Origin: Bacteroidota bacterium
GTDB taxonomy: Bacteria; Bacteroidota; Bacteroidia; Bacteroidales; VadinHA17
DNA length: 35,899 bases
NCBI GenBank assembly: GCA_025350595.1
Contig: JANXXP010000382.1
Location: 1 to 35,899, forward strand
Direction of reading: 5' to 3'
Shown: positions 128-18,491 of the stretch, piece by piece
How the letters are laid out: every line of letters starts with the position of its first letter
Numbering within the stretch: the stretch's first letter is position 1
Program-made: the position numbers and the translations under genes
The notes under the pieces: model-generated
What the model saw: only the letters and a program-made list of their open reading frames with translations
Told to the model about the DNA's origin: nothing
The model's database searches: none

Positions 128-535
128 TTACTTCTGAGACTTAACTTCTACAACTCCTGTTGATTTGGTTAGGGTGAGAGGTACTTCACCTTCTGTATAA
201 ACGGCTTTGCCAGTCATTTTAGCTGCATCTTCAAGTTTCAATTTTATAGACACATCCTGAGCTTCAACATATACTGAAAAGAAAAGACTATCATTTACAA
301 CAGATACTTTTTCAGCGGTAAGTGGAGAAGTATTTCCGTTAAATGTCATAGTTGCTGAATATTTTTTATCTGCCAGGCTAACTGCAATAGTTCCTGACTG
401 ATATCCCTGAGGAGCATAAGGCGCTTCAAAATTCCATGAACCAACAGGTCCGGCTTTTTTATTAGTATTTTGTGCGCTTACAGCTATGACAGAAAGAAAT
501 GAGATTACCAGGAGAGTTAAGATTTTACTTTTCAT
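128..535 (-). CDS. Small secreted hypothetical protein
   Basis: This 135-residue protein has a clear Sec signal peptide: Lys at 2 and 4, then a hydrophobic run, with likely cleavage after Ala-Gln near residue 22. The mature part is rich in Ser, Thr, Val and Lys and looks like a small beta-rich periplasmic or surface domain. No catalytic motif is visible, and I do not recognise the family. It lies last after the leftward sulfur genes, but the 130-bp gap and its own likely -7 box (559-566) suggest separate transcription. The start was chosen because the signal peptide begins exactly at this ATG. Confidence 0.75.
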   Translation of the reverse strand: MKSKILTLLVISFLSVIAVSAQNTNKKAGPVGSWNFEAPYAPQGYQSGTIAVSLADKKYSATMTFNGNTSPLTAEKVSVVNDSLFFSVYVEAQDVSIKLKLEDAAKMTGKAVYTEGEVPLTLTKSTGVVEVKSQK

Positions 536-558
536 AATGAGATTAATTAGTTAGATTT

Positions 559-566
559 CAAATATA
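559..566 (-). promoter_or_regulatory. Candidate -7 promoter box (TATATTTG)
   Basis: On the minus strand this reads TATATTTG, an exact match to the Bacteroidota -7 consensus TAnnTTTG, 24 bp upstream of the secreted-protein start at 535. No well-spaced -33 TTTG is evident, so the call rests on one box. Confidence 0.4.
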
Positions 567-616
567 GAAATCAATTTCCAAAAACCAATTTTATTTTTTA
601 GAATGATGATGAAAAG

Positions 617-665: not shown

Positions 666-1289
666 TTAGCAACCTCCTGCAGCTTTCTTTTTCTTTATTC
701 CGGCTGTGATTGCCGGTTTAGCTGAAACAGTACTCTGATCCTGTGAAGGTTGAATTGCAGAACCCCCACCAAGGGCGGCACCTGCACTTTTACGAAAATC
801 GTATTTCGCGAATTCTTCATCGGGACTTGTTGATGCTGGTTTATTAGGATTAAGAATTGCGTCAAACCAATAGTTAAGCCCGCCTTCGAGAACAAAGTTG
901 TTATTATAACCCAGTTGCCTCGTAACCATCCATGCTTCATTTGCGGTCAGAGTACCATTTGAATAGAAAACATTCATCTTTCCATCCTGGTTAAGGATAT
1001 CGGCGTATTTTTCAGAAAGCAGATCAGTAACCGGAATATTAATCGCACCCTGAAGGTTGAACTTTTCGAATTCATCCTGACTTCTTACATCAATTAGACG
1101 AAGGGTTGGGTCCTTTTTAATTATCATATCAGCCACTGCGTCCGGAGTGAGATACTGAGTTCGGGTATTGACTTCACCCAATAACTGTTCCGCTGTCAGT
1201 TTGTAAGGTTTCGTCTTATTCTGAGGAACAGCTGCAATGATTAATCCCATTGGGATGATGAATAATGCTAATAATCTTAAAGGTTTCAT
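666..1289 (-). CDS. Exported rhodanese-like protein lacking catalytic Cys, C-terminal Cys
   Basis: This is a 207-residue protein with an N-terminal hydrophobic anchor or signal (residues 4-21) followed by a rhodanese fold at about residues 48-145. The CH2A-type motif LIDVRS (65-70) and the helix after the active loop are present. The active-site loop reads YSNGT, so the sulfur-carrying Cys is replaced by Ser110. The only cysteine in the whole protein is its last residue, Cys207, after a Lys-rich tail ending KKKKAAGGC. Classical thiosulfate sulfurtransferase chemistry in the loop is therefore unlikely; the terminal Cys could carry persulfide instead (inference). It sits 36 bp downstream of two YeeE-type sulfur transporter genes. 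An in-frame ATG three codons upstream (1298) is an alternative start. Confidence 0.85.
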   Translation of the reverse strand: MKPLRLLALFIIPMGLIIAAVPQNKTKPYKLTAEQLLGEVNTRTQYLTPDAVADMIIKKDPTLRLIDVRSQDEFEKFNLQGAINIPVTDLLSEKYADILNQDGKMNVFYSNGTLTANEAWMVTRQLGYNNNFVLEGGLNYWFDAILNPNKPASTSPDEEFAKYDFRKSAGAALGGGSAIQPSQDQSTVSAKPAITAGIKKKKAAGGC

Positions 1290-1325
1290 ATTGGTCAATT
1301 TATATGTTGTATTTGATGTATTTCT

Positions 1326-1916
1326 TTAATATTCTTCCCTTGGAAATTTTTTCTCAGCCCATTCAGCTACCCAGAACATTGCCAAAGCAACCATAATTAG
1401 CAGGATTGCAAATACTCCGTCAGTGAGTCCGAGAGTTGTGCTAATTTTTGGAGAGCCCAGGAATTTTGCAAGATACATTCCATCCCATATTGGGTAACCT
1501 ATGCCAAAGATGAATACTCCCAGGAATAACCCTCCGATAAAAACGAAGGCATCAAGTTTGCCGATTGAGGCACCGCAAAAGCTTGTACCTGGACAATATC
1601 CTCCCATAATAAATCCTGCTCCCATAATAATTCCTCCAACAATCGCTGATGTCAGATAGGTTGGATTTACATAAACCATACTAAGATCTATCCAGCCAAA
1701 AAGGCTGAAGAAAAGTAGTCCGAGCATAGCGGTTATTGCAGCTGTAAAAAATACTTTCAATACAACTGTGTCATATCCATAAAAGACGCCGGCGAGTTTT
1801 CTGCTGGATGAAAAACCGCTTTGTTCCAAAACAAAACCAAATCCAATCCCAATAATGAAGGCAAGAAAGAGGTTTGTGTTTTCTGATATTAATTCGTTAA
1901 CTGATAATGGTCCCAT
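1326..1916 (-). CDS. YeeE/YedE family sulfur transporter half (PmpB/TsuA-like)
   Basis: This is a 196-residue integral membrane protein with about five to six hydrophobic segments. The family's Gly/Cys signature appears as GGYCPGTSFCG, with Cys108 and Cys114. In the characterised thiosulfate transporter TsuA (YeeE), conserved cysteines in such loops pass thiosulfate through the membrane; here the family is split into two half-size proteins, as in PmpA/PmpB. The partner half is encoded just upstream on the same strand (1993-2526). Neighbouring polysulfide reductase and rhodanese genes support transport of thiosulfate or another sulfane-sulfur species. The exact substrate cannot be read from sequence. 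Confidence 0.88.
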   Translation of the reverse strand: MGPLSVNELISENTNLFLAFIIGIGFGFVLEQSGFSSSRKLAGVFYGYDTVVLKVFFTAAITAMLGLLFFSLFGWIDLSMVYVNPTYLTSAIVGGIIMGAGFIMGGYCPGTSFCGASIGKLDAFVFIGGLFLGVFIFGIGYPIWDGMYLAKFLGSPKISTTLGLTDGVFAILLIMVALAMFWVAEWAEKKFPREEY

Positions 1917-1992
1917 TTGAATGTCTTTTTATCTGATTATCTAAATGTCTGATTGTCTTTCTTTCATAAAGCCGTTGCGCCTTTTAGCCGTT

Positions 1993-2526
1993 TTATATCC
2001 AGTTCTTCCTGAAGAAATAAGCCAGCGCGAACGCGGTTCCGAATATTGCCATCATAGTTATAAATCCTCCAAGGGAAAGCACTGCCATCCCGCTTAGGGC
2101 AGAGCCACTGGTGCAGCCTCTTCCGAGCTGCGATCCAAAGCCAAAGAGCACTCCGCCTCCCAGTGCAAGGAACAATCTCTTCATTGATGTGATTTTAGGA
2201 GAGTGTTCAACCTTAAATTTCAGACGACCTGCAAATGCGCCCGATAGAAATCCCCCTACCAGAACACCCAGCATTTCAAATACCAGCCATGTTTTCATGG
2301 GGTTCCCAGCATGTGATTGTCTGAATTCTTTAACAAATCCCGAGGACTCTGAGGAAACTGGAGCGATAGTTGTTTCGACGGTTACAATTGCACTTTTAAT
2401 AGCACCGCTGGCACCAAGCCCGCGACCTGACACAAAATTTGCTGCCAGAAGAACAATTCCAAGTAATACCCCGCCTATATAAGGATTAAGGTACTTTGTT
2501 TTTTTTATTTCGATCGATTTTGCCAT
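1993..2526 (-). CDS. YeeE/YedE family sulfur transporter half (PmpA-like)
   Basis: This 177-residue membrane protein is the second half-size YeeE/YedE member. Hydrophobic segments lie at about residues 15-35, 82-100, 117-135 and 145-172, with the signature LGRGCTSGSALSG around Cys138. A periplasmic-like loop (about 45-80) contains no cysteine. It is 76 bp upstream of the other half and probably forms a heteromeric channel or transporter with it. It lies downstream of the reductase genes with a 99-bp gap, so read-through or a separate promoter are both possible. Confidence 0.87.
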   Translation of the reverse strand: MAKSIEIKKTKYLNPYIGGVLLGIVLLAANFVSGRGLGASGAIKSAIVTVETTIAPVSSESSGFVKEFRQSHAGNPMKTWLVFEMLGVLVGGFLSGAFAGRLKFKVEHSPKITSMKRLFLALGGGVLFGFGSQLGRGCTSGSALSGMAVLSLGGFITMMAIFGTAFALAYFFRKNWI

Positions 2527-2606
2527 GTGTTATCTTTTTACAAATTTTTCATTTTATCATTATGGTCCGAGGTGTGCAGTGTGTGCTTTTACTTTACCGC
2601 AAACCT

Positions 2607-2620
2607 CATACCGCATACCG
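2607..2620. repeat. Heptamer repeat CATACCG x2
   Basis: CATACCG is repeated in tandem at 2607-2613 and 2614-2620, in the gap between the YeeE and NrfD-type genes. Its reverse complement, CGGTATG, is the same unit that opens the longer heptamer array at 35806-35840. Confidence 0.5.
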
Positions 2621-2625
2621 GTTAC

Positions 2626-3567
2626 CTAATATAGCCACCTACTCACCTGTCCGGCATAAACTATTATAAACCGAAGCATCAGGCTGCCAAATATTACCAT
2701 AACTGCCGGCATCATTGCAGGGATATGAAACTTGCCCAGCTCCATAATCTCCAAAAGAGCAGGAATGAGCATTCCCAGAATAACCACAAATATCCAGAAT
2801 GACATTGTATAAGGTCCTCCAAGAAACATTTTTGCTGCTTCAATCTGAACCTGAGTACTTGCATTAAATCCCATGAACATATGAATTATCAGAAATAATT
2901 CAATTCCTATCAGTACCAGATCTACCCTTGCAAATTGTTTACGTTCCATCGTATTTTTAGACAGAAGTAAAGTAGCTGCTGCTCCGGCGGAAAGTCCGGA
3001 AGCAAGGAACAGAGGTCCAAGAATCGATGTATTCCAGAGTGGACGTGCGTTAAAAGCTGAAAGCAAAATCCCTGTGTATATACCTAATATGATTGCGTAA
3101 ATTAGCATTACCCAGGCTAATGCTATCTTGTATTTATTGAAAAAAGATTCAAGATCAAACAAGATCTTAAACTTCCAGTCCCAGCGAGGGAAAATATCCT
3201 TTATATGCAGCGCACACCATATAAAGGATACTGGGGTAATAACCATTAGCGTCCATGCGCCCCATGACATTGGCGACTGCAACCTGATATTAGTGTATAA
3301 CTGCCAGAAAAACAACTTGTGACGCAAATCAATAAATAAAGCAATTAACCCCAGAACAAGTAAAAATGGTGCAAGAAACGGGGTAATTCGTACAGCGGTT
3401 TTATAATCTTTTTCCCTTCCTCTTATAAAATAGAGAGCTGCGATTGCAAGAATACCTGCAGCCATTCCTCCAAGAAACAGATAAAGGGATATCTGCCAGT
3501 GCCAGATATGCAGATGCGGATCAATAAGTTGATTCATCCTTCCGCTTACAATAGTTTCTTCTTTCAT
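2626..3567 (-). CDS. psrC: NrfD/PsrC-type membrane subunit of polysulfide/thiosulfate reductase
   Basis: This 313-residue protein has eight strongly hydrophobic segments, as expected for the NrfD/PsrC family that anchors molybdoenzymes and exchanges electrons with menaquinone. The N-terminal IWHWQISLYLFLGG element is typical of the first helix in this family. It has no heme-binding CxxCH. It follows the ferredoxin-like subunit gene by 21 bp and completes a PsrA-PsrB-PsrC set, so it is the quinone-facing membrane subunit. The direction in the cell (quinol to sulfur compound, or the reverse) cannot be decided from this subunit. Confidence 0.9.
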   Translation of the reverse strand: MKEETIVSGRMNQLIDPHLHIWHWQISLYLFLGGMAAGILAIAALYFIRGREKDYKTAVRITPFLAPFLLVLGLIALFIDLRHKLFFWQLYTNIRLQSPMSWGAWTLMVITPVSFIWCALHIKDIFPRWDWKFKILFDLESFFNKYKIALAWVMLIYAIILGIYTGILLSAFNARPLWNTSILGPLFLASGLSAGAAATLLLSKNTMERKQFARVDLVLIGIELFLIIHMFMGFNASTQVQIEAAKMFLGGPYTMSFWIFVVILGMLIPALLEIMELGKFHIPAMMPAVMVIFGSLMLRFIIVYAGQVSRWLY

Positions 3568-3588
3568 ATTTAACTGATAATTAACATT

Positions 3589-4122
3589 CTAGATTAGGAA
3601 GTACAATTGAGGATTTGTTCCTGCTTCCGGTATAAGCGTCTTGAATTTTCTCCTTTTCAGTATAACAGAAACATTACTGTTAAGGTCGTGAAGATCACCA
3701 AAGTAGAGGCATTTTGTAGGACATACTGCCACGCACGCGGGAGACAATCCGTTTTTAATCCTGTGTTCGCAGAAGGTACATTTATCAACATAACCTGCCG
3801 GATGAGGATATCGTGCATCGTAAGGACATGAGGCCATACAGGCTCCGCATCCGATACATTTATTGTGATCAACAACGACTATCCCCCCTTCAATCTTTTG
3901 ACTTGCACCGGTAGGGCAACACCTTACACATGGTGCATTTTCACAATGATTGCACCGCTCCGACCTGATCTCCATTTCAAGTTGTGGATAAGTTCCGTCC
4001 ATTACCTCAACAACCCAATCACGGCAGAAACCGATTGGAACATTGTTTTCGGTCTGACAGGCTACAACACAATCGCTGCATCCTACGCATTTCCTGGTAT
4101 CTACTGCCATTGCGTATCTCAT
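3589..4122 (-). CDS. psrB: Four-cluster ferredoxin subunit PsrB-like
   Basis: This 177-residue protein has four ferredoxin Cys motifs: CVGCSDC, CNHCENAPC with CCP, CIGCGACMASC and CTFC with a C-terminal CVAVC. That is the standard pattern for electron-transfer subunits of the DMSO reductase family (PsrB, PhsB, TtrB). It would carry electrons between the NrfD-type membrane subunit and the catalytic subunit on the outer face of the membrane. It has no signal peptide of its own, as expected if it is exported in complex with the Tat-targeted PsrA. Its ATG overlaps the psrA stop codon (ATGA, 4119-4122), which implies translational coupling. Confidence 0.93.
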   Translation of the reverse strand: MRYAMAVDTRKCVGCSDCVVACQTENNVPIGFCRDWVVEVMDGTYPQLEMEIRSERCNHCENAPCVRCCPTGASQKIEGGIVVVDHNKCIGCGACMASCPYDARYPHPAGYVDKCTFCEHRIKNGLSPACVAVCPTKCLYFGDLHDLNSNVSVILKRRKFKTLIPEAGTNPQLYFLI

Positions 4123-6356
4123 GATGCAACCTCCTTCTCAGTTTTCTCTGTTACAAATGTTACAAAATTGCCTCTCATCCCTGTTCCTCCCATAATCGGA
4201 TCGATCAATACTTTTGTAATAAGCTGTGTATCGCTTGCGCCTTTTCCAAAACAGCGTTCCAATTGCTTCTGACCATGTCCGAATCCATGAACCATATATA
4301 TTGAGTCCCAGCGGATCCTCTCTGTTATTCTTACTTTAATAGGGAAATCAGAAACAACTCCATCCTGATTTTTCAGCCAGATATACTGACCTGCTTTCAA
4401 TCCCCACTCTTTTGACACCTTAGGGTTAACCCATACTGAATTTTCCTTCATCAGGTCAGTAAGATTCGGGTTATTTAAAGTCCTTCCAAAAGTGTGCATT
4501 GGTGCACGACCATAAATAAGACGGTAAAAGCCTTCAGCTGGTTCTTCATGAGCAACATATTTTGGAAGAGGATCAAAACCTGCATCCTCAAAAGCTTTAG
4601 AAAATAATTCAATCTTTCCTGAATCTGTCGAAAATACAACGTCTTCATTTTCTGCAAAATATAGATCATCAGCCTCTCTTTCGGATGTCTTAACTCCTAC
4701 CCGCTGCATCTCTTCAAGAGAAGAACCAATCTGTTTAAGCTGCCAGTCAAGCAATTCCTCCTGTTTTTCAAACGGAACATAAGCTTCAAGACCAAGATTA
4801 ACTGCAAGGCCTCTGGCAATATTATAACCTGACCTGGTACTATTCTTTGCTTCAGCGGCTGGCATCCTGAGAGCAATAGCCGGTTTACGGTAAGGACTGA
4901 TTCTCAGCGCATCATAGCGTTCAAGATAGGTACATTCAGGAAGAACAACATCAGCCCATCCTGTAATTTCCATCGGCATAGTATCTATAGCAACAATAAG
5001 ATCAAGATTCTGAATTGCTTTAATAGTATCCGGCCGATTTGGGATGGATGATATAAGATTTGTTCCGTTAACAATCCATCCTTTTATTAATATTCCGGGC
5101 TTGTTCTCAGGAATTGAAGCAGCGATCAGAGCATTCGAAACCGGAGAACTTGCGATAGGGTATTTACCAGGAAAGGCATCGGTCCAGGTCTTTTTAGGTT
5201 CAGGATACTTTGGGATTTTAGCAGAGGGGACAGCAAATTTTGCAGGTCTGTAAAATCCACCGCGCCGGCCCCAAGAACCTAAAAGTGCATTTAAAATAGC
5301 AACAGCACGAACCCGCTGTGTATCATCACCGTACCACGTTACATGACGACCAGGATGCACAATAACTGAAGGAGAAGCATCGGCCATCTCTTTGGCGGTT
5401 TTTCTGATAAGATCTGGTTTGATAGTTGTAATTCCATAAGCCCATTCAGGAGTAAAATCCTTTACATGTTCTTTTAGTTTGTCGAATCCAGAACAATATT
5501 TTTCGACATACTTTTTATCGTAATAATCGTTAAAAATTATCTCGTTAATCCAGGCCAGAAGTAATGCAATATCCGTAGATGGCTTTATGGGAAGCCAGAA
5601 TTTTGATTTGCCTGCTGCTGTTGAGAATCTTGGATCGACAGTAATTATTGTCACTCCTTTATCTATAGCATCCGACATCTCCTGAATCTGTCCGTTATGC
5701 ATGTTCTCACCAATGTGAGATCCAATGAGGACAAGACATTTTGTATCGCGTATATCAGTTATTTCAGGAGAGTAAACTTCCTCTCCGAATGTAGCCATAA
5801 ATGCTTCATCTCTTGGCCCACGACATTGGGCATAAGATGGTTCTGCAATATTTGACGAGCCATAAGCTTTTGTCAGATTTGTATAATAAGCGCTTCCTGA
5901 GCCGTGTGTAAATAAAGCCATACTTTCAGGACCATATTTTGAAGAGATGTCCTTCATTTTAGCTGCAATATATTCAAATGCTTCATCCCATGAGGCTTCC
6001 CTGAATACCTGCTTTCCCCGCTCTTTAACTCTTATCAGTGGTGTTTTTAATCTGTCTTCATCATAGTACATTCCAACTCCACCTGTCCCACGAGGACAAA
6101 ATCGGCCATTACTATGCTGATCTTCATCATTCCCTATGATCTTCCAGATTTTACCTTCAGATGTTTTGTAAACCCATCCTGCACATTTCCAGAAACATAC
6201 CTCACAGTAAGTTGGTGTTCTCTTAAGATCCACCCTTAGCTTACTGGCATTTTCAGGTGAGGAAATCAATTTGATTGCACCATATGTTCCTGAGCTCATT
6301 GCAAGAACACCGGCTCCCATTGCTGAAATTTTAATAAAATCTCTTCTGCTGGTCAT
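4119..6356 (-). CDS. psrA: Molybdopterin catalytic subunit, polysulfide/thiosulfate reductase type
   Basis: This is a 745-residue member of the DMSO reductase superfamily. It opens with a Tat signal (SRRDFIK at 3-9 followed by a hydrophobic run). The N-terminal [4Fe-4S] site is Cys51, Cys54, Cys58 and Cys87, the last in FCPRG. Cys178, in SYAQCRGPRD, is placed to be the molybdenum ligand, as in PsrA/PhsA. The length matches PsrA and PhsA (about 750-765) rather than tetrathionate reductase or SoeA, which are longer. Downstream YeeE transporters and a rhodanese support a polysulfide or thiosulfate substrate. Thiosulfate versus polysulfide, or oxidation instead of reduction, stays open. It starts 47 bp after the stop of the fnr-like gene on the same strand. 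Confidence 0.88.
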   Translation of the reverse strand: MTSRRDFIKISAMGAGVLAMSSGTYGAIKLISSPENASKLRVDLKRTPTYCEVCFWKCAGWVYKTSEGKIWKIIGNDEDQHSNGRFCPRGTGGVGMYYDEDRLKTPLIRVKERGKQVFREASWDEAFEYIAAKMKDISSKYGPESMALFTHGSGSAYYTNLTKAYGSSNIAEPSYAQCRGPRDEAFMATFGEEVYSPEITDIRDTKCLVLIGSHIGENMHNGQIQEMSDAIDKGVTIITVDPRFSTAAGKSKFWLPIKPSTDIALLLAWINEIIFNDYYDKKYVEKYCSGFDKLKEHVKDFTPEWAYGITTIKPDLIRKTAKEMADASPSVIVHPGRHVTWYGDDTQRVRAVAILNALLGSWGRRGGFYRPAKFAVPSAKIPKYPEPKKTWTDAFPGKYPIASSPVSNALIAASIPENKPGILIKGWIVNGTNLISSIPNRPDTIKAIQNLDLIVAIDTMPMEITGWADVVLPECTYLERYDALRISPYRKPAIALRMPAAEAKNSTRSGYNIARGLAVNLGLEAYVPFEKQEELLDWQLKQIGSSLEEMQRVGVKTSEREADDLYFAENEDVVFSTDSGKIELFSKAFEDAGFDPLPKYVAHEEPAEGFYRLIYGRAPMHTFGRTLNNPNLTDLMKENSVWVNPKVSKEWGLKAGQYIWLKNQDGVVSDFPIKVRITERIRWDSIYMVHGFGHGQKQLERCFGKGASDTQLITKVLIDPIMGGTGMRGNFVTFVTEKTEKEVAS

Positions 6357-6403
6357 AAATTATATTATAGTCATTGATTGAATGGAAAAACCGAATATGA
6401 AAA

Positions 6404-7105
6404 CTATCCCAGCCTGCTTATCTTATCAAGTTTCTTTATATTATTGATCACAATATTTTTACCAGAGATAGTAATGATTTCTTCATCATTGAATTTTGCC
6501 AGAACACGACCCGTACTTTCTCTTGATGTTCCAACCATGTCAGCAATCTCACGCCTACTTAACGGAATCTGAAATTTGGTGCTTGAAAAAACAACCCTGG
6601 AAAAATAGATTAACATATCAGCGATACGTCCGTAAGTTTTCTTATTGCTCTGCGCAATAAATCTGTGAAAATTATAAAGGCTCTCTCTTCCAACGGATGA
6701 AAGAATTTCAAACGCAAAATTCCCGTTACTTTTGATCATTTGGGTAAAGATATCAATGTCAATATAACAAACCTTAAGCTCAGTAAGAGCTGAGTAAGAG
6801 TAATGATTTATCTTATCGCCAAAAAGGGAAGTCAAACCAAGGTATGAATGAGGGAGAATTATCTGGAGAATTTGTTCCTTATTATCTGGCTTGATGAGAT
6901 ATTCTTTAACCAGTCCTGATCTCAGATAAATAATATGTGATATAGGATATCCTGCATTCAGAATATTGGTCTTTCGGTTTATTTCACTTATATACCGGTT
7001 ATTAGTAATTAACTCCAGTTCTGTTTCACTCAGTTTTTCGGTTGCACAAGACTTATCAAGACAGTCATGACATTTATTAGTAGCCGGTTTTGGTGTTCTG
7101 GTCAT
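6404..7105 (-). CDS. FNR-like Crp-family regulator with Fe-S cysteines and CRP-type recognition helix
   Basis: This 233-residue Crp/Fnr regulator has an N-terminal CHDC plus Cys20 (Cys12, 15, 20) and a fourth Cys113 in ELKVCYIDID. This is the spacing and place of the FNR [4Fe-4S] ligands (Cys20, 23, 29, 122 in E. coli). A cyclic-nucleotide-type beta roll, long dimer helix and winged HTH follow. The recognition helix reads SRESTGRVL, with Arg195, Glu196 and Arg200 at the CRP Arg180/Glu181/Arg185 positions, so TGTGA half-sites are predicted. Two such palindromes lie just upstream. The ATG at 7105 was chosen because the Cys cluster then sits where it does in FNR; an upstream ATG at 7174 would place the start inside the operator. 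It is likely an oxygen or NO sensor controlling the sulfur genes on both sides. Confidence 0.88.
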   Translation of the reverse strand: MTRTPKPATNKCHDCLDKSCATEKLSETELELITNNRYISEINRKTNILNAGYPISHIIYLRSGLVKEYLIKPDNKEQILQIILPHSYLGLTSLFGDKINHYSYSALTELKVCYIDIDIFTQMIKSNGNFAFEILSSVGRESLYNFHRFIAQSNKKTYGRIADMLIYFSRVVFSSTKFQIPLSRREIADMVGTSRESTGRVLAKFNDEEIITISGKNIVINNIKKLDKISRLG

Positions 7106-7130
7106 ATTAGAATATCTGTATATCTGAATA

Positions 7131-7138
7131 CAAAGATA
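7131..7138 (-). promoter_or_regulatory. Candidate -7 box for the fnr-like gene (TATCTTTG)
   Basis: On the minus strand the sequence is TATCTTTG, an exact TAnnTTTG match, 26 bp upstream of the chosen start codon. The implied start site is near 7128. That places the centre of the first palindrome (7167.5) about 40 bp upstream, close to a class II activator position. Confidence 0.5.
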
Positions 7139-7159
7139 TAAATTAGATTCCTTTTTTTT

Positions 7160-7175
7160 TGTGATATTGATCACA
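7160..7175. promoter_or_regulatory. CRP-type palindrome TGTGA-N6-TCACA (operator 1)
   Basis: TGTGATATTGATCACA is a perfect match to the CRP-type consensus TGTGA-N6-TCACA and lies between the divergent sulfur operons. The regulator encoded next to it carries the matching recognition residues. The site is predicted to be its operator. Confidence 0.7.
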
Positions 7176-7181
7176 CTTTAT

Positions 7182-7197
7182 TGTGTCATATCTCACA
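7182..7197. promoter_or_regulatory. Second CRP-type near-palindrome TGTG-N8-CACA (operator 2)
   Basis: TGTGTCATATCTCACA has TGTG and CACA arms with the same total length as operator 1. It is offset from operator 1 by exactly 22 bp, about two helical turns, so two dimers would bind on the same DNA face. Confidence 0.55.
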
Positions 7198-7331
7198 GCG
7201 TGTCGATTTTAAGCCACTTCCAGTCATTCACATTTTTATGATTTTCGCACTTCAGATACATCGTAAATGCACATGCAATGGTCAAAAACAAATATTTATC
7301 ATATTTATGCATATAAATATATAAGTAACTA

Positions 7332-7339
7332 TATATTTG
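7332..7339 (+). promoter_or_regulatory. Candidate -7 box of the sqr operon (TATATTTG)
   Basis: TATATTTG matches TAnnTTTG exactly and lies 33 bp upstream of the flavoprotein start codon at 7372. No clear -33 TTTG is present at the usual distance, which would fit a promoter that needs an activator. The palindromes lie about 150 bp upstream. Confidence 0.45.
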
Positions 7340-7371
7340 TATTGTGAATTAATTAACAGTACAGATTTGAT

Positions 7372-8604
7372 ATGAAAAAACTTTTAATACTAGGTGCTGG
7401 GACAGCTGGTTCGATAATGTCAAACAAGATGCGAAAATGTTTGTCAAAAAATGAATGGAGTATAACAGTTGTGGAAAGAGAAATGAAGCATTATTATCAG
7501 CCTGGTTTTCTTTTCATCCCCTTCGGATATTACAGGAAAAAAGACATTGTTAAACCCGAATCGAAATTCATACCAAAAGGAGTTGATTTAGTAAACGCTG
7601 AAATTGAGAATATCGATTCTGCACAAAACAGAGTAACACTGAAAAATGGAACATCAATTATTTATGATATACTCATAATTGCTACCGGTACACGGATTAG
7701 TCCCGAAGATACACCCGGACTTAAAGGAGAACTCTGGCAAAAAAGCATTTTTGATTTCTACACAATTGAAGGAGCTGAAGCTCTTGCAAAATATTTCAAA
7801 ACATGGCAAGGCGGCAACCTGGTTATAAACATTGCGGATAATCCTATCAAATGTCCGGTTGCTCCACTTGAATTCGCTTTTTACTCAGACGAGTTCTTCT
7901 CAGCAAAGGGAATGCGAGATAAAGTAAACATAACCTATGTAACGCCACTGTCGGGAGCATTTACAAAACCAAAAGCCTCTAAGATGCTTGGATCACTCCT
8001 TGAGCAAAAGAATATTAATCTCGTAAGTGACTTTTTCATCGGAGAAGTAGATAATACAAATAAAAAAATACTTGATTTCGGAGGAAGAGAGGTTCCTTTT
8101 GATTGTCTGGTAACAATACCACTTCATGTCGGAGATACTGTAATATCAAAAAGCGGTTTGGGTGATGAGTTCGGATTTGTAAAGGCGGATAAACAAACTC
8201 TTCAGTCTGTGATATCCAAAAACGTTTTTGTAATAGGAGACGCAGGAAACTACCCCTCATCAAAAGCCGGATCAGTAGCACATTTTCAAGCCGATATCCT
8301 TGTGCATAATATCTTAAGTTTTATAAATGACAAACCGTTGACAGCAACTTTCGATGGTCATTCCAATTGCTATATTGAAACAGGACACGGGAAAGGAATC
8401 CTGATCGATTTTAACTATACAACCGAACCACTTCCCGGAGTTTATCCAATGCCGCTGGTAGGTCCCTTCGCCTTATTGAAAGAAACAAGACTTAATCATC
8501 TTGGAAAACTTCTGTTCAAATGGATTTACTGGAATATCCTCCTGAAGGGAAGAAGACTACCTGTAACAGATTATATGTCAATGACCGGTAAAATTCAGAA
8601 TTAA
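7372..8604 (+). CDS. sqr: Sulfide:quinone oxidoreductase-like flavoprotein
   Basis: This 410-residue FAD protein has an N-terminal dinucleotide motif (LGAGTAGS, 7-14), the ATG motif (IIATGTR) and the FAD-binding VIGDAGN near 287-293. Two cysteines sit where SQR has its redox pair: Cys161 in PIKCPVAP and Cys333 in SNCYIETGHGK. They correspond to Cys201 and Cys379 of human SQOR, which carry the sulfane sulfur. The C-terminus has an amphipathic, aromatic stretch (about 379-393) suited to membrane attachment, also typical of SQR. It would oxidise sulfide to persulfide or polysulfide and reduce quinone. It is the first gene of a rightward set followed by DsrC- and DsrE-type sulfur carriers. The related flavocytochrome c role is less likely because no heme partner is nearby. 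Confidence 0.85.
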   Translation: MKKLLILGAGTAGSIMSNKMRKCLSKNEWSITVVEREMKHYYQPGFLFIPFGYYRKKDIVKPESKFIPKGVDLVNAEIENIDSAQNRVTLKNGTSIIYDILIIATGTRISPEDTPGLKGELWQKSIFDFYTIEGAEALAKYFKTWQGGNLVINIADNPIKCPVAPLEFAFYSDEFFSAKGMRDKVNITYVTPLSGAFTKPKASKMLGSLLEQKNINLVSDFFIGEVDNTNKKILDFGGREVPFDCLVTIPLHVGDTVISKSGLGDEFGFVKADKQTLQSVISKNVFVIGDAGNYPSSKAGSVAHFQADILVHNILSFINDKPLTATFDGHSNCYIETGHGKGILIDFNYTTEPLPGVYPMPLVGPFALLKETRLNHLGKLLFKWIYWNILLKGRRLPVTDYMSMTGKIQN

Positions 8605-8651
8605 TTACTAATCAATAAAATACTATAACTAACAAATTAAATTTCACTACT

Positions 8652-8963
8652 ATGGCACAAAAAACATATGCGGGAATAACAGTCGATGTTAATGAAGAAG
8701 GTTATTTTACCAATCCGGCACAATGGACCAAAGAAATTGCAGTAGAAATCGCAAAAGAGGAAGGTCTTGTACTGACAGGACAACACTTTGCAATTATGGA
8801 TTTTCTTCGCAACAAATTCATAGGCGGAGAAGCACTCTCAATCAGAAGCATTAATCATTCTGGTGTTCTTGATGTAAAAACATTCTATCAGCTCTTTCCG
8901 GGAGCGCCACTCAAAAAGGCTACTAAAATTGCAGGTATTCCAAAACCCGTAAGCTGCATTTAA
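8652..8963 (+). CDS. DsrC/TusE family sulfur-carrier protein
   Basis: This 103-residue protein has the DsrC/TusE fold signature: an N-terminal VNEEGYFTNPAQW element and the C-terminal arm ATKIAGIPKPVSCI. The penultimate Cys102 is the conserved persulfide-carrying residue. The upstream second cysteine of true DsrC (ten residues earlier in the arm) is absent, so it resembles TusE. DsrAB, TusA and TusBCD are not encoded nearby. Placed between an SQR-like enzyme (47-bp gap) and a DsrE protein (26-bp gap), it probably accepts sulfane sulfur produced by SQR or DsrE (inference) rather than serving only tRNA thiolation. Confidence 0.9.
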   Translation: MAQKTYAGITVDVNEEGYFTNPAQWTKEIAVEIAKEEGLVLTGQHFAIMDFLRNKFIGGEALSIRSINHSGVLDVKTFYQLFPGAPLKKATKIAGIPKPVSCI

Positions 8964-8989
8964 TAAAAACCCTATAAATACAACTAACT

Positions 8990-9493
8990 ATGAACACAGA
9001 ACCTAATTATGCAATTAAAAAAGTCAATCTCATTTGTGCCAAAGGCGCAATAGAAGACGTGTATGCAACCCTCGTTATGGGAAATGGTGCAGTAATGGAA
9101 GGAATAGAAACAAATATATTCTTTACCTTCTTCGGACTTGATGCCATCATCAAAACCAGAATGGACAAGCTCCATACGGGTGTTGTCGGAAATCCTGCAT
9201 TAAGACTGCCCGGGGGTATGAGAATGGCATCGCTTTTGGGAATAATACCGGGAATGGAGGCCTTCACATCCTGGATGATGAAGAGCCAGATGGCTGATCT
9301 GGATATACCACCTGTAAGCGAATTTATGGATCTGATTACTGCAGGGGGAGGTAAAATTTATGCCTGCAAATTAGCAATGGACATGTTCAAATTCAAACAG
9401 GAGGATCTTTCGGAACATGTAAGCGGGATTCTTACAATTGGTGAATTTTATGCTCATGCTGGAGGCGAAGGATCTCAAATTATATTCACCTGA
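8990..9493 (+). CDS. DsrE/DsrF-like sulfur-transfer protein (DsrE2 type)
   Basis: This 167-residue protein matches the DsrE/DsrF/DrsH-like fold. A first strand carries Cys16 (VNLICAKG), and the motif GKIYACKLAMDMF places Cys126 at the usual sulfur-binding position. A central segment rich in Gly, Met and Leu (about 73-100) is typical of the DsrE2 subgroup, which is often membrane-associated. DsrE-type proteins trap or donate persulfide and pass it to DsrC/TusE by Cys-Cys transfer. It is the third gene of the sqr set; an inverted repeat follows 26 bp after its stop. Confidence 0.88.
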   Translation: MNTEPNYAIKKVNLICAKGAIEDVYATLVMGNGAVMEGIETNIFFTFFGLDAIIKTRMDKLHTGVVGNPALRLPGGMRMASLLGIIPGMEAFTSWMMKSQMADLDIPPVSEFMDLITAGGGKIYACKLAMDMFKFKQEDLSEHVSGILTIGEFYAHAGGEGSQIIFT

Positions 9494-9755: not shown

Positions 9756-11417
9756 ATGATAAATAATACAGATACTGTAGAAACAGATGTTCTGATTATT
9801 GGAGGTGGACCATCCGGATTAGCTGCTGCAATTCATCTTGCTGATATTTTAAAACAAAAAAATCAGGCAGGTAGAATTCTTCTGATTGAAAAAGGGCTCT
9901 CAATAGGGAGTCATATTCTTTCCGGAGCAATTATAAAAACAGCTGTATTCAAAGAACTTTTACCTGAAACTGATCTTTCAGAGATTCCATTTGATACTAA
10001 AGTGATAAGCGATAAAACACTATTTTTAACAGAAAAGAGATCATTCGCAGTACCTTTCCATATGCCTTACATGAATAACATGGGCAACTATACCGCATCA
10101 TTGGGTCAGATCTGTAAATACCTGGCTGTAAAGGCGGAAGAAAAAGGGGTTGAAATATATGCCGGCTTTGCTGTAGATGAGATTTTGTATGGAGATGGAA
10201 AAGTAATTGGTGCAAAAACAAAAGATACTGGGCTCGACCATCACGGAAATCATCTGGAAAATTTTCAGCCTGGAACACGCATTGAAGCTAAACTTACCAT
10301 TTTTGCAGAAGGGACACGAGGCAGTCTGACAAAAATGCTAATTAAAAAATTTGATCTGAACAAAGGGAAAAATGAACAGGTTTACTCCCTTGGCTGTAAG
10401 GAAATATGGTCGGTTCCTCCCGGAAATATTGAGGCTGGACATGTTTTCCATACTTTGGGCTATCCGCTTGACAATGATGAATTTGGAGGAGGATTCATAT
10501 ATGGTTTAAAAGACAATAGAGTAGCTCTTGGTCTGGTTGTCGGACTTGATTATAAAGATCCTACTTTCGATGTACACGATGCAATGCAGATCTGGAAAAC
10601 GAATCCATTTATCTCCAAAGTCCTGAAAGGGGGCAAATTACTTGAATACGGTGCCAAGACACTTCCTGAAGGTGGGTTTTATTCCATCCCGAAATTATTT
10701 ACTGACAATGCATTGATAATTGGCGACAGCGCCGGACTATTAGCAATGCCTGCTCTCAAAGGAATACATCTTGCTGTAAGATCAGGTATGCTGGCTGCCC
10801 AAACAGCTGCTGATGCACTTTTGAATAAAGATACTTCTGAAAAAAGCCTTCAGAAATATGAGTCTTCGCTTTATAACAGTAATATTTCTAAGGAATTATA
10901 TCCTGTTCGTAATTTTCGGCAGGGATTTGCAAAGGGCTTAATAGTTGGAGGGATGCACTTTGGAACACAATTAATAACGGGAGGAGCCGGATTTTTCGGA
11001 AGGCTTAATTCTCATCCTGATTATCAGGCAACAGTAAAACTCAGTGAGCTAAGAAAGAAGCCTTTTAAAGAACGTTTCAAAGGGAAACTTGAATTCGACA
11101 AAGTGCTCACCTTTGACAAATCAACCGATGTTTACCATTCCGGTGTCTTTCATGATGAGAATCAGGTTGTTCACCTTCAAATTAAAAACAAAGAAGAATT
11201 CGATGCTGTTAATATTGAAGAGTATGGTGCACCTGAGCAATTTTATTGTTCATCGGAGGTTTATGAGCTCCATACCAATAAGAACGGCAGGAAAGAGTTA
11301 CGCATCCATGCTGAAAATTGCATGCATTGCAAAACCTGCGATATAAAATCTCCGGGACAAGAAATTACCTGGGTTGTTCCGAATGGAGGCAATGGTCCTG
11401 ACTTTCAAAATATGTAA
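9756..11417 (+). CDS. Electron-transfer flavoprotein:quinone oxidoreductase (ETF-QO)
   Basis: This 553-residue flavoprotein has an N-terminal FAD motif (IIGGGPSGLAAA, about 15-26), the GSHILSGAI element of ETF-QO and a second FAD contact (LIIGDSAGLLAMPALKG). The C-terminal [4Fe-4S] site is Cys498-x23-Cys522-x2-Cys525-x2-Cys528. It passes electrons from reduced ETF to the quinone pool at the membrane. The length fits bacterial ETF-QO, equivalent to a FixC fused to FixX. It is followed 18 bp later by a fused EtfB-EtfA, its direct redox partner. No acyl-CoA dehydrogenase is encoded in the window, so the electron source is unknown. Confidence 0.93.
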   Translation: MINNTDTVETDVLIIGGGPSGLAAAIHLADILKQKNQAGRILLIEKGLSIGSHILSGAIIKTAVFKELLPETDLSEIPFDTKVISDKTLFLTEKRSFAVPFHMPYMNNMGNYTASLGQICKYLAVKAEEKGVEIYAGFAVDEILYGDGKVIGAKTKDTGLDHHGNHLENFQPGTRIEAKLTIFAEGTRGSLTKMLIKKFDLNKGKNEQVYSLGCKEIWSVPPGNIEAGHVFHTLGYPLDNDEFGGGFIYGLKDNRVALGLVVGLDYKDPTFDVHDAMQIWKTNPFISKVLKGGKLLEYGAKTLPEGGFYSIPKLFTDNALIIGDSAGLLAMPALKGIHLAVRSGMLAAQTAADALLNKDTSEKSLQKYESSLYNSNISKELYPVRNFRQGFAKGLIVGGMHFGTQLITGGAGFFGRLNSHPDYQATVKLSELRKKPFKERFKGKLEFDKVLTFDKSTDVYHSGVFHDENQVVHLQIKNKEEFDAVNIEEYGAPEQFYCSSEVYELHTNKNGRKELRIHAENCMHCKTCDIKSPGQEITWVVPNGGNGPDFQNM

Positions 11418-11435
11418 CCTAAAAGAAATCACAAA

Positions 11436-13382
11436 ATGGCTTTAACTATAATAAGTTTGATAAAACAAGTCCCGCTTCCAAGTGAGATGCGAATGGGGGA
11501 AGACGGACTCATGGACCGGACCAAAGCAAAATCAATTATAAATATTGATTGTCAGTTTGGTCTCGAGGCAGGGTTACAGCTCAAAAAACAATATCCTGAT
11601 GCAAGATTAATTGTTTGCTCAATGGGACCTAAGTCTTTCGAGAACGCATTAAGAACAGCAATTTCAATGGGATATGATGAAGCTTACCTTTTATCGGACC
11701 GTAAACTTGCTGGAAGTGACACCTATGCAACAGGTCTTGCGATTTCCACAATGCTCAAACATCTTGGTTTTACCAAAGATTCCAAAGATCCGTTTATAGT
11801 CCTTGCAGGAAGACAAACCAGCGATGGTGATACGGCTCATGTTCCATCACAGGTAGCAGAAAAGATAGGAATTCCTCAGGCCACCTTTGTTGAGAGTGTA
11901 AAACCTGATGGCTCAGGCAATGTCATTGCCAGAAGGATAATAGAGGGCGGATACCAATTATTAAAGCTGCCAATGCCCTGTGTCATATCACTGACTCCAA
12001 CCGGAATTCCTCCCCGTAAACCATCCTTAAGCGGAGCAATAAAAGCCCGCAACCTCAGGATTACAACTTTCGGCATAGAAGATATAGGGCTGGGTACAGA
12101 AAAAATTGGAATAAACGGATCGCCAACAATCGTAGCTAAGGTAATCAATATTGTCAGCGAACGTCCCCCCATAACAATGTCTGTGGGACATAATGAATCG
12201 CAGTTAGTTGACAGTCTGATTGCAAACATAAAAAAAGGTGGTAATGTCCTGCAGAATAAGGAAAAAGCAGCAAAAAAAGAGGTAGAACATCCTGATTTTC
12301 CGGATAAAGATTTCAGAAACGGATCGAGAGGAATTTTAACATGGGCAGAAATAACCAATGGAAAAATTTCCAGACCATCGCTGGAACTTCTTACACCTGC
12401 AAGAAACCTCGCTACACAATTAGGAAATAACACACAGGTAATCACAGTAATTATCGGAAAAAATGTCGGACAATTGAGTCAAACTCTTATTGAACATGGC
12501 TCTGATGAGGTCATAATGGTTGAAGATGAAAGACTTCAAGAATACCTGGTCCTCCCCTTTTCATCAATTTTCGCCCAGATTATAAATGAGAGAAAACCAG
12601 AAATAGCCTTATTTGCCGCTACAACTTCAGGTCGTGAGTTAGCACCCAGAATAGGGATGAAAACTGATAGCGGTGTTACAGCCGATTGCACTGGACTTGA
12701 GATTGGTGAATATATTGACAAAAAAGAAAAAGTTATTTATAAACCAATTCTTGAATCACGACGGCCTACTTATGGCGAAAGTAAACTGGCAACGATCCTT
12801 GGTTTTGTTTGTCCTCAAATTTCAACAGCAAGGGCAGGTACCTTCGAAGTTCCTAAAAACATTGAAGGTCGAAAAGGAATTATTTCAGAATTCAAACCAG
12901 TCCTGAACGATAAAGATTTTGTTGTCGAAATAGTGAAGACAGAAAGAGGCGAAGGGGGATTACAGAATCTCTTCGAGGCAGATTTAATTATTGCCGGTGG
13001 CAGAGGTACAACTAATGACAACTTAAAGCTTATAAAGACTCTCTCTGAAGAATTAAAAAAACAGGGAATAAATGCCGAATGGGCTTGCAGCAGACCTGTT
13101 GTCGACGAAGGAGTTGCCGAGTACTCACGACAAATAGGTCAGACCGGAAAGACGATTCGTCCGAAAATATATATTGCGGTTGGAGTCTCCGGTGCGATTC
13201 AGCATATTGCAGGGATGAAGGAATCTGAAAAAATCATTGCAATCGATCACAACCCAAAGGCGCATATCTTCAACAACGCTGATTTTGGTATAGTTGGAGA
13301 GTATTCTGATATAGTACCTGAATTGATCGAAAGGGTAAAAGCCGGTTATAAATTCGGCCTTGATCAGGTTATAATAAAATAA
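11436..13382 (+). CDS. Fused electron-transfer flavoprotein EtfB-EtfA
   Basis: This 648-residue protein joins two ETF subunits that are normally separate. Residues 1 to about 265 are EtfB-like, with IKQVPLP at the start, GSDTYATG and AGRQTSDGDT motifs. After a charged Lys/Glu-rich linker (about 268-297) the EtfA part begins (GILTWAEI). It ends in the FAD domain with AGGRGTTN, QIGQTGKT, GAIQHIAGMK and NNADFGIVGEY, all standard FAD and AMP-ribityl contacts. The order is beta then alpha. It would collect electrons from dehydrogenases and deliver them to the adjacent ETF-QO. Whether the beta half binds AMP or a second, bifurcating FAD cannot be settled by eye. No frameshift is seen, so the fusion is real in this sequence. 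Confidence 0.92.
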   Translation: MALTIISLIKQVPLPSEMRMGEDGLMDRTKAKSIINIDCQFGLEAGLQLKKQYPDARLIVCSMGPKSFENALRTAISMGYDEAYLLSDRKLAGSDTYATGLAISTMLKHLGFTKDSKDPFIVLAGRQTSDGDTAHVPSQVAEKIGIPQATFVESVKPDGSGNVIARRIIEGGYQLLKLPMPCVISLTPTGIPPRKPSLSGAIKARNLRITTFGIEDIGLGTEKIGINGSPTIVAKVINIVSERPPITMSVGHNESQLVDSLIANIKKGGNVLQNKEKAAKKEVEHPDFPDKDFRNGSRGILTWAEITNGKISRPSLELLTPARNLATQLGNNTQVITVIIGKNVGQLSQTLIEHGSDEVIMVEDERLQEYLVLPFSSIFAQIINERKPEIALFAATTSGRELAPRIGMKTDSGVTADCTGLEIGEYIDKKEKVIYKPILESRRPTYGESKLATILGFVCPQISTARAGTFEVPKNIEGRKGIISEFKPVLNDKDFVVEIVKTERGEGGLQNLFEADLIIAGGRGTTNDNLKLIKTLSEELKKQGINAEWACSRPVVDEGVAEYSRQIGQTGKTIRPKIYIAVGVSGAIQHIAGMKESEKIIAIDHNPKAHIFNNADFGIVGEYSDIVPELIERVKAGYKFGLDQVIIK

Positions 13383-15110: not shown

Positions 15111-15138
15111 AGTTCTGAATTTACATTATTACTTTTCA

Positions 15139-17609: not shown

Positions 17610-18491
17610 CTATATCACCAATAATTTAAATCCAAGAACATTTACCAGCTTCTGGCCGGGGCAGAAAATTTTATAAGCAACAGGCCATACGTTTGACAGA
17701 TAAGTATCTTGCTTTTCCCTGATTTTAATTATCAGTTCATCCATTTCCGGTATGCTAGTGCTATTGGGGTATTTATATCCCAGCGCGTTAACCAGTTGAT
17801 TCAGATCGTTGTATTTGCCAAGATTCTGGGTCAGATCATCCATTTTCTTTTCAAGAGCTTTGATCACAGATATATTCAGTGGTCTGAAAAAATATAATTG
17901 GTACAGAAAGTCCTTAGATTTCTTTCTGAATTCATGAATATTCTTTGGCTTAGGGTTATTCCTGCAGATCATGTAAATATCTGTCACCTTGTTAAATGTC
18001 GCTTCAAGTTCTTTAATTAGCAACTGAGGATTAATTACTTTCATAGCTTGAAAACGGAGCCTGTATCCTGCTTTATTGAGCAGGCTGTCAATTTCTTCCA
18101 GACCGGCTTTTATATCCTCTGGCGGTTCAGTAACAGGTTCAGTTTTATTAAGAAGTGTTATTATCGCCTTATTTTCCCTGATTTGTTTAAAGATGCCCGG
18201 AAATTCTTTACGCAATTCTTTCAAAGTCTTTCTGTGCACTGAAGTCTCACGCCATGAAGACATTATCCTTCCAACTTCTCTGAATGCAGTTATATCTCTG
18301 ACTACAGACTCAGGTTCCTGCTGTGGCGCTATAAGTTTAAGTACAGCCCTTGCATTTTTCATGTAAACACGAACATCGTGAACAGTTTTCTCATCAGGAA
18401 CAGGAAATTGCTTCAATAAAATCTGTGATTCCTTTATATATCCCGTAAGAGCAGGTTTTATCTCTTTAAGTTTAACGTAATCGAGTTCCAT
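17610..18491 (-). CDS. CHAD domain protein
   Basis: This 293-residue, mostly helical protein has the two-fold CHAD architecture. Conserved basic surfaces include HDVRVYMKNARAVLKL near 38-53 and HEFRKKSKDFLYQL near 184-197, each with the His/Arg/Lys pattern that binds polyphosphate. There is no CYTH domain. CHAD proteins localise to polyphosphate granules; a polyphosphate kinase gene lies 6 kb away at 24637. The stop is 6 bp from the convergent Crp/Fnr stop. It is more likely a polyphosphate-binding or granule protein than an enzyme. Confidence 0.87.
   Translation of the reverse strand: MELDYVKLKEIKPALTGYIKESQILLKQFPVPDEKTVHDVRVYMKNARAVLKLIAPQQEPESVVRDITAFREVGRIMSSWRETSVHRKTLKELRKEFPGIFKQIRENKAIITLLNKTEPVTEPPEDIKAGLEEIDSLLNKAGYRLRFQAMKVINPQLLIKELEATFNKVTDIYMICRNNPKPKNIHEFRKKSKDFLYQLYFFRPLNISVIKALEKKMDDLTQNLGKYNDLNQLVNALGYKYPNSTSIPEMDELIIKIREKQDTYLSNVWPVAYKIFCPGQKLVNVLGFKLLVI

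Follow-up and report, generated by a model that had tools for sequence, protein, structure and literature searches.

Why would one bacterium keep a sulfur-reducing and a sulfur-oxidising gene cluster back to back, with a single regulator beside them? The question is raised by a 35,899-nucleotide stretch of DNA from a Bacteroidota bacterium of the VadinHA17 group (assembly GCA_025350595.1, contig JANXXP010000382.1, positions 1–35,899), hereafter the window. The minus strand carries, in this order, crp-psrA-psrB-psrC-yeeB-yeeA-rhd, coding for a Crp/Fnr-family regulator, a PsrABC-type reductase, two halves of a YeeE transporter and a rhodanese-domain protein. The plus strand carries sqr-dsrC-dsrE2, coding for a sulfide:quinone oxidoreductase (SQR) and for DsrC- and DsrE2-like proteins. 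A gap of 266 bp separates the two arms. A first-pass annotation had named these ten genes, and family profiles recognized all of them where it had placed them (Table 1). The arrangement is more than chance: the same cassettes recur in the same order in many relatives, and the window is collinear at the DNA level with relatives whose slot has a single cassette.

The same annotation had proposed that both arms form one functional system. We arrived at another explanation, which as a whole we hold somewhat more probable than not. The island would consist of two autonomous sulfur cassettes sharing one genomic slot; among the genomes of the genus, this slot is usually occupied by one of the two. 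A regulator would act on palindromes between the arms, and the psr cassette would encode a SoxY-like carrier arm, part of the rhodanese-domain protein.

Distribution of the two cassettes and their shared slot

We compared the window with the 62 genomes of its genus and with a wider set of 146 genomes. In the genus, SQR was found in 19 genomes and PsrA in 35, or in 37 if counting two (G003 and G048) in which the cassette was represented by its yeeB side alone. These two had no PsrA match and a yeeB of 85–88% identity near a contig end. Both arms were present in 5 genomes, only sqr in 14, only psr in 32 and neither in 11, an anti-association (Fisher p = 6e-4, with G003 and G048 as psr-bearing). 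Leaving the two partial loci uncounted gave p = 2.6e-4, and the 37 high-quality genomes gave p = 0.045. G005 was scored as psr only, because its apparent sqr beside psr (L084) is a weak match and the genome has no SQR match.

The 146-genome table excludes G097 and G126 (distant SQR-like matches, 27–32% identity). Here, both arms were found in 14 genomes, only sqr in 26, only psr in 53 and neither in 53, with no association (p = 0.14). Outside the genus the corresponding counts were 10, 11, 22 and 41, a slight and non-significant positive association. A tree-aware test with 8 independent pairs gave on average 0.3 in the same direction versus 4.6 in the opposite one, and was not significant (median p = 0.125). 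From the counts in the genus and in the 146 genomes it follows that each arm occurs without the other, which rules out psr and sqr as obligate partners.

The anti-association is one of position, centred on a slot between an M1 peptidase/lip135 and chad-pfkA-sixA-ppk. In 18 genomes this slot contained sqr-dsrC-dsrE2 (all of them had a slot marker on one side or both; G028 by tblastn only), and it contained rhd-yeeA-yeeB-psrCBA in 19 (with a marker at most three genes away on at least one side), none of the latter having an SQR match. Both were found only in the window, that is, in 1 of 38 occupied slots. The other psr copies of the genus were at contig ends or elsewhere. DNA alignments showed the exchange directly. 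Against a relative whose slot has sqr and no psr (G048, L016), the window was collinear except for 5.96 kb, taken up by the psr block plus the terminal part of crp; window positions 164–576 and 6535–9491 matched this locus, where they are ~60 bp apart. Against a relative whose slot has psr and no sqr (G008, L080), it was collinear except for 11.25 kb, containing crp, the sqr unit and the genes following it; positions 666–6356, and then 17606 onward, matched this locus, where 215 bp separate them. A quick rpoB tree, 18 of its 46 inner branches being open, required 10 changes of the sqr/psr state among single-state genomes, and the close sisters G010 (psr) and G035 (sqr) differed. The tree included 49 of the 62 genomes: 10 had no match, G005 and G015 had only short pieces, and G036 was dropped as too short.

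In four other genera of the family psr and sqr were linked, adjacent in G062 and G082 and 10 kb apart in G071 and G078. One locus (L216) had psrABC-yeeB-yeeA-rhd-sqr in a single direction, and yeeB-yeeA-rhd-sqr was co-directional in G100 (L047; probably the same contig as L194).

One reading of this pattern is mere co-residence. The slot would have held both cassettes ancestrally, as in G062, with later loss of one or the other, or recombination in the flanks would swap them; the window would be a relic, or would have become doubly occupied only recently, its arms being metabolically uncoupled. The 10 state changes, the differing sisters and the collinear flanks agree with it, as does the same M1 peptidase-psr-sqr order in another genus (L028). 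Against it stand the palindromes common to both arms (see below) and the repetition of the linkage in different topologies. We give co-residence slightly less than an even chance; it is compatible with the two autonomous cassettes, an explanation which leaves coupling open.

An assembly chimera of two loci could be suspected from the draft state of the genome (396 contigs, 2.3% contamination) and from a second, partial lip135-sqr start at the end of contig C145. It was rejected as highly improbable, every junction recurring elsewhere: lip135-rhd in L080 and L082, psrA-crp in L072, L074 and L104, and crp-sqr in L016. The C145 end (G000:C145, L050) has an sqr 73% identical to that of the window and no psr in between, and represents either a second copy of the slot or a contaminating strain in the bin. 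The either/or slot is new and unproved.

The regulator and the gap between the arms

The regulator had been annotated as FNR-like. Its Crp/Fnr family and a four-Cys pattern were confirmed, the alignment having C-x2-C-x4-C plus a central Cys. FNR uses four Cys for a [4Fe-4S] cluster, and the pattern found here may fit an Fe-S or a thiol sensor. The recognition helix (SRESTGR) is CRP-like and the nearby palindromes are of the CRP type, so that FNR was discarded as the regulator type. The listed start is a GTG at 7174, within a perfect operator-like palindrome, which makes the ATG at 7105 the likelier start.

Searching for TGTGA-N6-TCACA with at most one mismatch, we found three sites in the whole window, all within the crp-sqr gap. 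Three per window are not unusual (19 of 100 shuffles reached this number), while three in the 266-bp gap were reached by none of 5000 local dinucleotide shuffles. An exact palindrome was present close 5′ of the regulator in all seven members of its subfamily with an upstream region (the window, G048, G031, G010, G006, G051 and G018), its middle bases differing between members; an eighth member, in G019, ends at the contig edge. The crp-sqr gap of G048 had counterparts of all three palindromes, even though its crp (L016, 9173–9740) is frameshifted and has lost most of its DNA-binding part. A third Crp type, represented by 15 genes in 17 rows, precedes sqr in other genera; it had no exact palindrome and one with a mismatch. 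Of the second Crp type (helix RES[IV]SR), 4 of 7 rows had the exact palindrome, which is therefore not unique to the subfamily of the window; this counts against our explanation.

The CRP/FNR-type regulator probably binds the palindromes between the arms, and a single control region for both arms is likely. In this respect the first-pass annotation is supported: the arms diverge from one gap with three clustered palindromes. It had gone further, to a reversible sulfane-sulfur buffer tied to the quinone pool, in which PsrABC reduces, SQR makes sulfane sulfur and one switch governs both. The divergent arms and the palindromes would suit such a buffer, and so would the psr-sqr linkage in the four other genera and the co-directional arrangement in L216. 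The relatives disfavour it as a single obligate system: the arms are anti-associated in the genus, share 1 of 38 occupied slots, and show no association over the 146 genomes. These results do not support the claim of one functional system, and we regard the buffer as quite unlikely, while in this one species it may exist.

A rhodanese domain with a Gly-Gly-Cys tail

The last gene of the psr arm, rhd, had been labeled rhodanese-like. The fold is that of a rhodanese (PF00581, 53.6 vs 22.2 bits; Foldseek hits to rhodaneses, E 5e-7), but the label overlooked a missing catalytic Cys and a C-terminal Gly-Gly-Cys (GGC). The loop of the window protein reads VFYSNG, with Ser at the catalytic position, and the protein ends in IKKKKAAGGC. 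In the AlphaFold model the core had a predicted local distance difference test (pLDDT) score of >90 and the tail mostly <50.

Both features were conserved in the order. Our alignment had 48 rows, the window included, after a bit-score filter had removed one G071 gene (present at two loci, L038_15 and L063_9), a two-domain rhodanese with the catalytic Cys, without the tail and without an adjoining YeeE. The catalytic position was non-Cys in 48/48, four of which had a Cys a few residues further in the loop, and 47 ended in a mostly Lys-rich linker followed by GGC or GGCG. In 24 aligned rhd sequences, the invariant columns were the start Met, four domain residues and G-G-C (24/24). Among homologues in named genomes (the best 80 of 183 relatives), 78 ended in GC, and Ser was at the catalytic site in all 80 scored, one further row being gapped. 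The record titles were Bacteroidales, Prolixibacteraceae, Marinilabiliaceae, Marinifilaceae, Labilibaculum, Ancylomarina, Sunxiuqinia and similar, with one Chlorobiota. A draw of 395 genomes from the phylum gave 52 matching rhd, of which 29 loci (31 reading frames) were read besides the window’s own. All 31 frames ended in GC (GGC or EGC), and the site was non-Cys in 29. Some genomes had two tandem rhd copies.

The profile behind the distant homologues includes the tail, and we therefore ran a control with the tail-free Pfam model PF00581, free of this bias, in five genomes (own and four others). It gave 36 rhodanese-domain matches. Six adjoined a YeeE half or formed one chain with it, and all six carried Ser at the site and a GC tail (GGC, EGC or GGCE). 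A GC tail was absent from the other 30, L291 being read only up to an in-frame TGA; L237 and L317 retain the catalytic Cys and have a final Cys that no Gly precedes.

The transporter halves accompanied rhd closely. In the 80 named-genome loci, both YeeE halves were near rhd in 75 and one half in three more, and the two without (L154 and L187) start within 160 bases of the rhd gene. In the phylum, 28 of the 29 loci had both. PsrA or PsrC was seen in 70 of the 80 and in 15 of the 29, these neighbour counts being limited by the often short stretches around rhd. The conserved Cys of the halves were Cys 108 of yeeA (41/41) and Cys 138 of yeeB (45/45).

In distant Bacteroidota (e.g., L140, L145, L147 and L152) a single chain comprised a YeeE half, then an extra helix, the rhodanese domain and finally GGC. 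An octaheme cytochrome c gene was found 5′ of the fused form in all six regions read, with a cytochrome b gene after it in four (BLAST). The four octaheme proteins tested passed TIGR04315, of the tetrathionate reductase family, with 571–598 bits against a cut-off of 375, and the one searched against the PDB matched the octaheme protein 1sp3 (4e-121). Charges before the extra helix, read by eye, suggest that the rhodanese part of the fusion is in the periplasm, like that of the split form. Because the reductase neighbours change or are missing, the constant unit is yeeB-yeeA-rhd.

A split YeeE has been proposed before, for PmpA/PmpB (excerpt of PMC11582611). As there, the window has an N- and a C-terminal half, each with a conserved Cys; judged by where they lie in each half and not by structure, these are the counterparts of Cys91 and Cys293. 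Unlike PmpA/PmpB, the window and nearly all loci read have a third gene following, rhd with its GGC. The same source describes SoxY as carrying sulfur on the Cys of a GGC arm, proposes that persulfidated SoxYZ feeds the YeeE-like SoxT1A, and calls the passage of sulfane sulfur across the inner membrane poorly understood even in Sox bacteria. In PMC11237559, SoxY sequences are filtered by the “GGC” motif, SoxY-S1c lies near YeeE/D and dsrAB, with dmsAB further upstream, and SoxY-S3 adjoins an octaheme tetrathionate reductase.

The likeness to SoxY is in the GGC arm (flexible in rhd by pLDDT), the YeeE-family transporter nearby and the kinds of neighbours of divergent SoxY. The differences are the rhodanese fold (Pfam, Foldseek) without SoxY homology, the GGC at the extreme C-terminus, the N-terminal helix, the occasional fusion to a YeeE half and the position beside reductases. 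We infer that rhd acts like SoxY without being SoxY, its fold having been tested and found to differ. At barely better than even confidence, Bacteroidota would have evolved a SoxY of their own: a catalytically dead rhodanese, with an N-terminal helix and a basic GGC arm, as the dedicated carrier of a split YeeE (in some lineages fused to it), coupling two unrelated reductases linked to quinol, PsrABC and the octaheme tetrathionate reductase, to transmembrane sulfur traffic.

In the proposed mechanism, a periplasmic molybdoenzyme of the PsrA/PhsA type would take quinol electrons via PsrB and PsrC and reduce polysulfide or thiosulfate. A flexible basic arm would have the Cys-less rhodanese domain as its docking platform, and the Gly-Gly-Cys at the end of the arm may hold a sulfur atom, like the GGC arm of SoxY. 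The arm would shuttle sulfur between the reductase and the conserved Cys of the PmpAB-like split transporter, and could do so either way, from the reductase to the transporter or in reverse. The rhd domain is probably periplasmic, given the N-terminal helix, the Tat-like (twin-arginine) start of PsrA and the charges read by eye.

Several observations count against the carrier arm. The periplasmic location depends on the helix, the Tat-like start and the charges just named, and the tail in the search profile is a mild bias. One of the 48 rows, a second G078 copy (L064), ends before the tail; in the named genomes, L213 (a copy from a metagenome-assembled genome) has no tail and L223 is cut off. 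L141 and L144 keep the catalytic-site Cys alongside the tail. L306, one of the 30 control matches away from YeeE, is a Cys-less rhodanese without a tail, so that Cys loss alone is not telling. L128 (G440) has two tailed copies directly beside psrC and no YeeE half in the stretch read. In the structure model of the fusion the transporter half was unusable (pLDDT <50). An extra yeeB-yeeA-rhd unit within the genus (L325–L328), with the tail LDGGCE, had no PsrA or octaheme gene in view. In the genome of the window this unit adjoins a two-domain rhodanese.

Absence of the catalytic Cys in nearly all members excludes classic rhodanese chemistry, and the GGC tail could then be a tether instead of a carrier. 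It would be disulfide-linked to YeeE, to PsrA or to a further copy, or would bind a metal, the domain being a mere docking module. The Cys loss and the tandem copies are consistent with a tether. The sulfur transport or reduction context, present wherever it was readable, and the role of GGC as the functional motif of SoxY (PMC11237559) speak for the carrier arm instead, and we consider the tether unlikely.

In Wolinella, the periplasmic protein Sud, of rhodanese type, carries polysulfide for Psr. Like Sud, rhd has a PF00581 domain and adjoins PsrABC; unlike periplasmic rhodaneses, it lacks the catalytic Cys in nearly all members and has a tail Cys in its place. By this precedent, the carrier could gather polysulfide sulfur and present it to PsrA, the YeeE pair serving something else. 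L128, with its two tailed copies adjoining psrC, would be explained this way. However, the fusions seen are to a YeeE half, none being to a Psr subunit among the loci read, and the carrier also occurs without psr, beside another reductase or none. We rate a Sud-like direction as rather doubtful. The carrier arm as a partner of the split YeeE is new and, as a proposal from sequence, unproved. In the parts of the open-access PMC literature consulted, subscription papers being outside the scope, we found no description of a GGC-tailed or Cys-less rhodanese with YeeE.

Cassette subunits, neighbouring genes and meaning

The PsrA of the window had Thermus 2vpw as its best solved relative (655.7 bits; next structure 202.8), and scored 464 bits with the NCBIfam PhsA model, under the cut-off of 694. 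Its [4Fe-4S] Cys 51, 54, 58 and 87 were kept in 45–46 of 48 rows, the remainder being mostly gaps. The Tat-like start, RRDFIK, was read by eye. The enzyme resembles PsrABC/PhsABC in its three subunits, the Tat-like start, the PsrA-type catalytic subunit closest to 2vpw and the NrfD membrane subunit. It differs in the extension of the operon by yeeB-yeeA-rhd. Going by its family, polysulfide or thiosulfate is the presumed substrate. A second psr locus of the genus (L072, L085, L110) had two Crp-type genes 5′ of psrA and was away from the slot markers. In L063, L064 and L067, genes for a Rieske-like protein and for a cytochrome-b-like protein of 917 aa, rich in CxxCH motifs (by eye), adjoined psrA; in G071 and G078, Rieske-like and cytochrome-b-like genes sit between psrA and sqr.

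In the sqr cassette, SQR would use quinone as the acceptor in oxidising sulfide to sulfane sulfur, which it would pass to DsrE2 and the single-Cys DsrC/TusE. With 621.8 bits, SQR exceeded the cut-off (525) of NF049943, the model for the type III SQR selenoproteins, and it matched the PDB SQR 8dhk with 161 bits. Cys 161 and Cys 333 were conserved in 39/40 and 40/40 aligned sequences. The frame is open without a stop, and Cys 333 stands in H-S-N-C, with no selenocysteine. At this position a table in the review PMC13188914 lists HxxU. The window enzyme is like this subtype in its score and in the company of DsrE2 and DsrC/TusE, and unlike it in having Cys at the probable selenocysteine position. 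All 39 genomes with DsrE2 were among the 42 with an SQR match. In outgroups and in some members of the genus (L028, L043, L023, L048 and others), sqr and dsrC are separated by a DUF1641 gene (~225 aa), which is absent from the window.

Dissimilatory DsrC has two C-terminal Cys, CysA and CysB, and forms the DsrC trisulfide. In 35/35 aligned homologues of the window protein the CysB position was non-Cys, leaving only the penultimate Cys. The protein is therefore TusE-like and trisulfide chemistry is not expected; we ruled it out. DsrE2 was under the equivalog cut-off of NCBIfam NF047629 (88.3 vs 210) but over that of Pfam DrsE_2, with Cys 16 and Cys 126 kept in 35/35. We also considered the YTD cluster of sulfur disproportionators, which has YeeE and DsrE-type parts (excerpt of PMC13047784). 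It was rejected as the identity of the island: no TusA or YeeD was seen in the window, YeeE is split and the DsrE family is different.

The electron-transfer flavoprotein (ETF) genes following the sqr unit were also found after it in G018, G025, G026 and G031 (L011, L014, L018, L042). In these four relatives a class-V aminotransferase gene (PF00266, ~500 aa) lies between the sqr unit and the ETF genes; it was also seen in the slot next to psr. DUF302 and cation-efflux genes occupy positions 14724–15780 of the window, after the ETF genes and before the right slot marker. Beyond that marker follow pfkA-, sixA- and ppk-like genes, from 23053, 24143 and 24574 (names by eye). A heterodisulfide-reductase-like cluster adjoins the left slot flank in L011, L014, L018, L021 and L095 (two genes CCG/Fer4 by domain, the rest by eye). 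Rfam and tRNA scans gave no match.

Table 1 Features of the sulfur island and its flanks in the window.
Feature	Position	Strand	Basis or remark
lip135, small, probably secreted protein, left slot marker	128..535	-	homologue directly upstream of sqr or rhd in genus relatives
rhd: N-terminal membrane/signal helix, rhodanese domain, disordered tail	666..1298	-	PF00581 3e-14; ATG start likelier at 1289
yeeA, N-terminal YeeE/YedE transporter half (PmpB-like)	1326..1916	-	PF04143 (Sulf_transp) profile 4-157
yeeB, C-terminal YeeE/YedE transporter half (PmpA-like)	1993..2526	-	PF04143 (Sulf_transp) profile 172-309
psrC, NrfD-family membrane quinol subunit	2626..3567	-	PF03916 2e-49
psrB, 4Fe-4S subunit	3589..4122	-	Fer4_11 2e-23; NrfC/TtrB/DsrO-like, under equivalog cut-offs
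psrA, molybdopterin subunit, PsrA/PhsA type	4119..6356	-	best PDB Thermus 2vpw; Tat-like start
Crp/Fnr-family regulator	6404..7105	-	PF13545, PF00027
palindrome 1, exact, TGTGATATTGATCACA	7160..7175	+	TGTGA-N6-TCACA scan
palindrome 2, one mismatch, 22 bp from palindrome 1	7182..7197	+	TGTGA-N6-TCACA scan
palindrome 3, one mismatch, just 5′ of sqr start	7343..7358	+	scan; counterpart in G048
sqr, sulfide:quinone oxidoreductase, Cys 161 + Cys 333	7372..8604	+	NF049943
dsrC/tusE-like, single penultimate Cys	8652..8963	+	TIGR03342 71.4 vs 53.5
dsrE2-like sulfur carrier, Cys 16 + Cys 126	8990..9493	+	PF13686 89.6 bits
ETF:quinone oxidoreductase + fused EtfBA	9756..13382	+	family matches; follow sqr unit
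CHAD-like right slot marker	17610..18491	-	slot comparison with relatives

The either/or slot offers a natural experiment on a reducing versus an oxidising sulfur lifestyle. If true, the carrier arm would name a partner of YeeE transport, hinging on one terminal Cys. The psr-yee-rhd operon is also present in Labilibaculum, Ancylomarina and Sunxiuqinia, the record titles of which point to isolates. For Bacteroidota seen only in metagenomes, the YeeE pair with a GGC-tailed rhodanese would then be a sequence marker for the metabolism of sulfur compounds.

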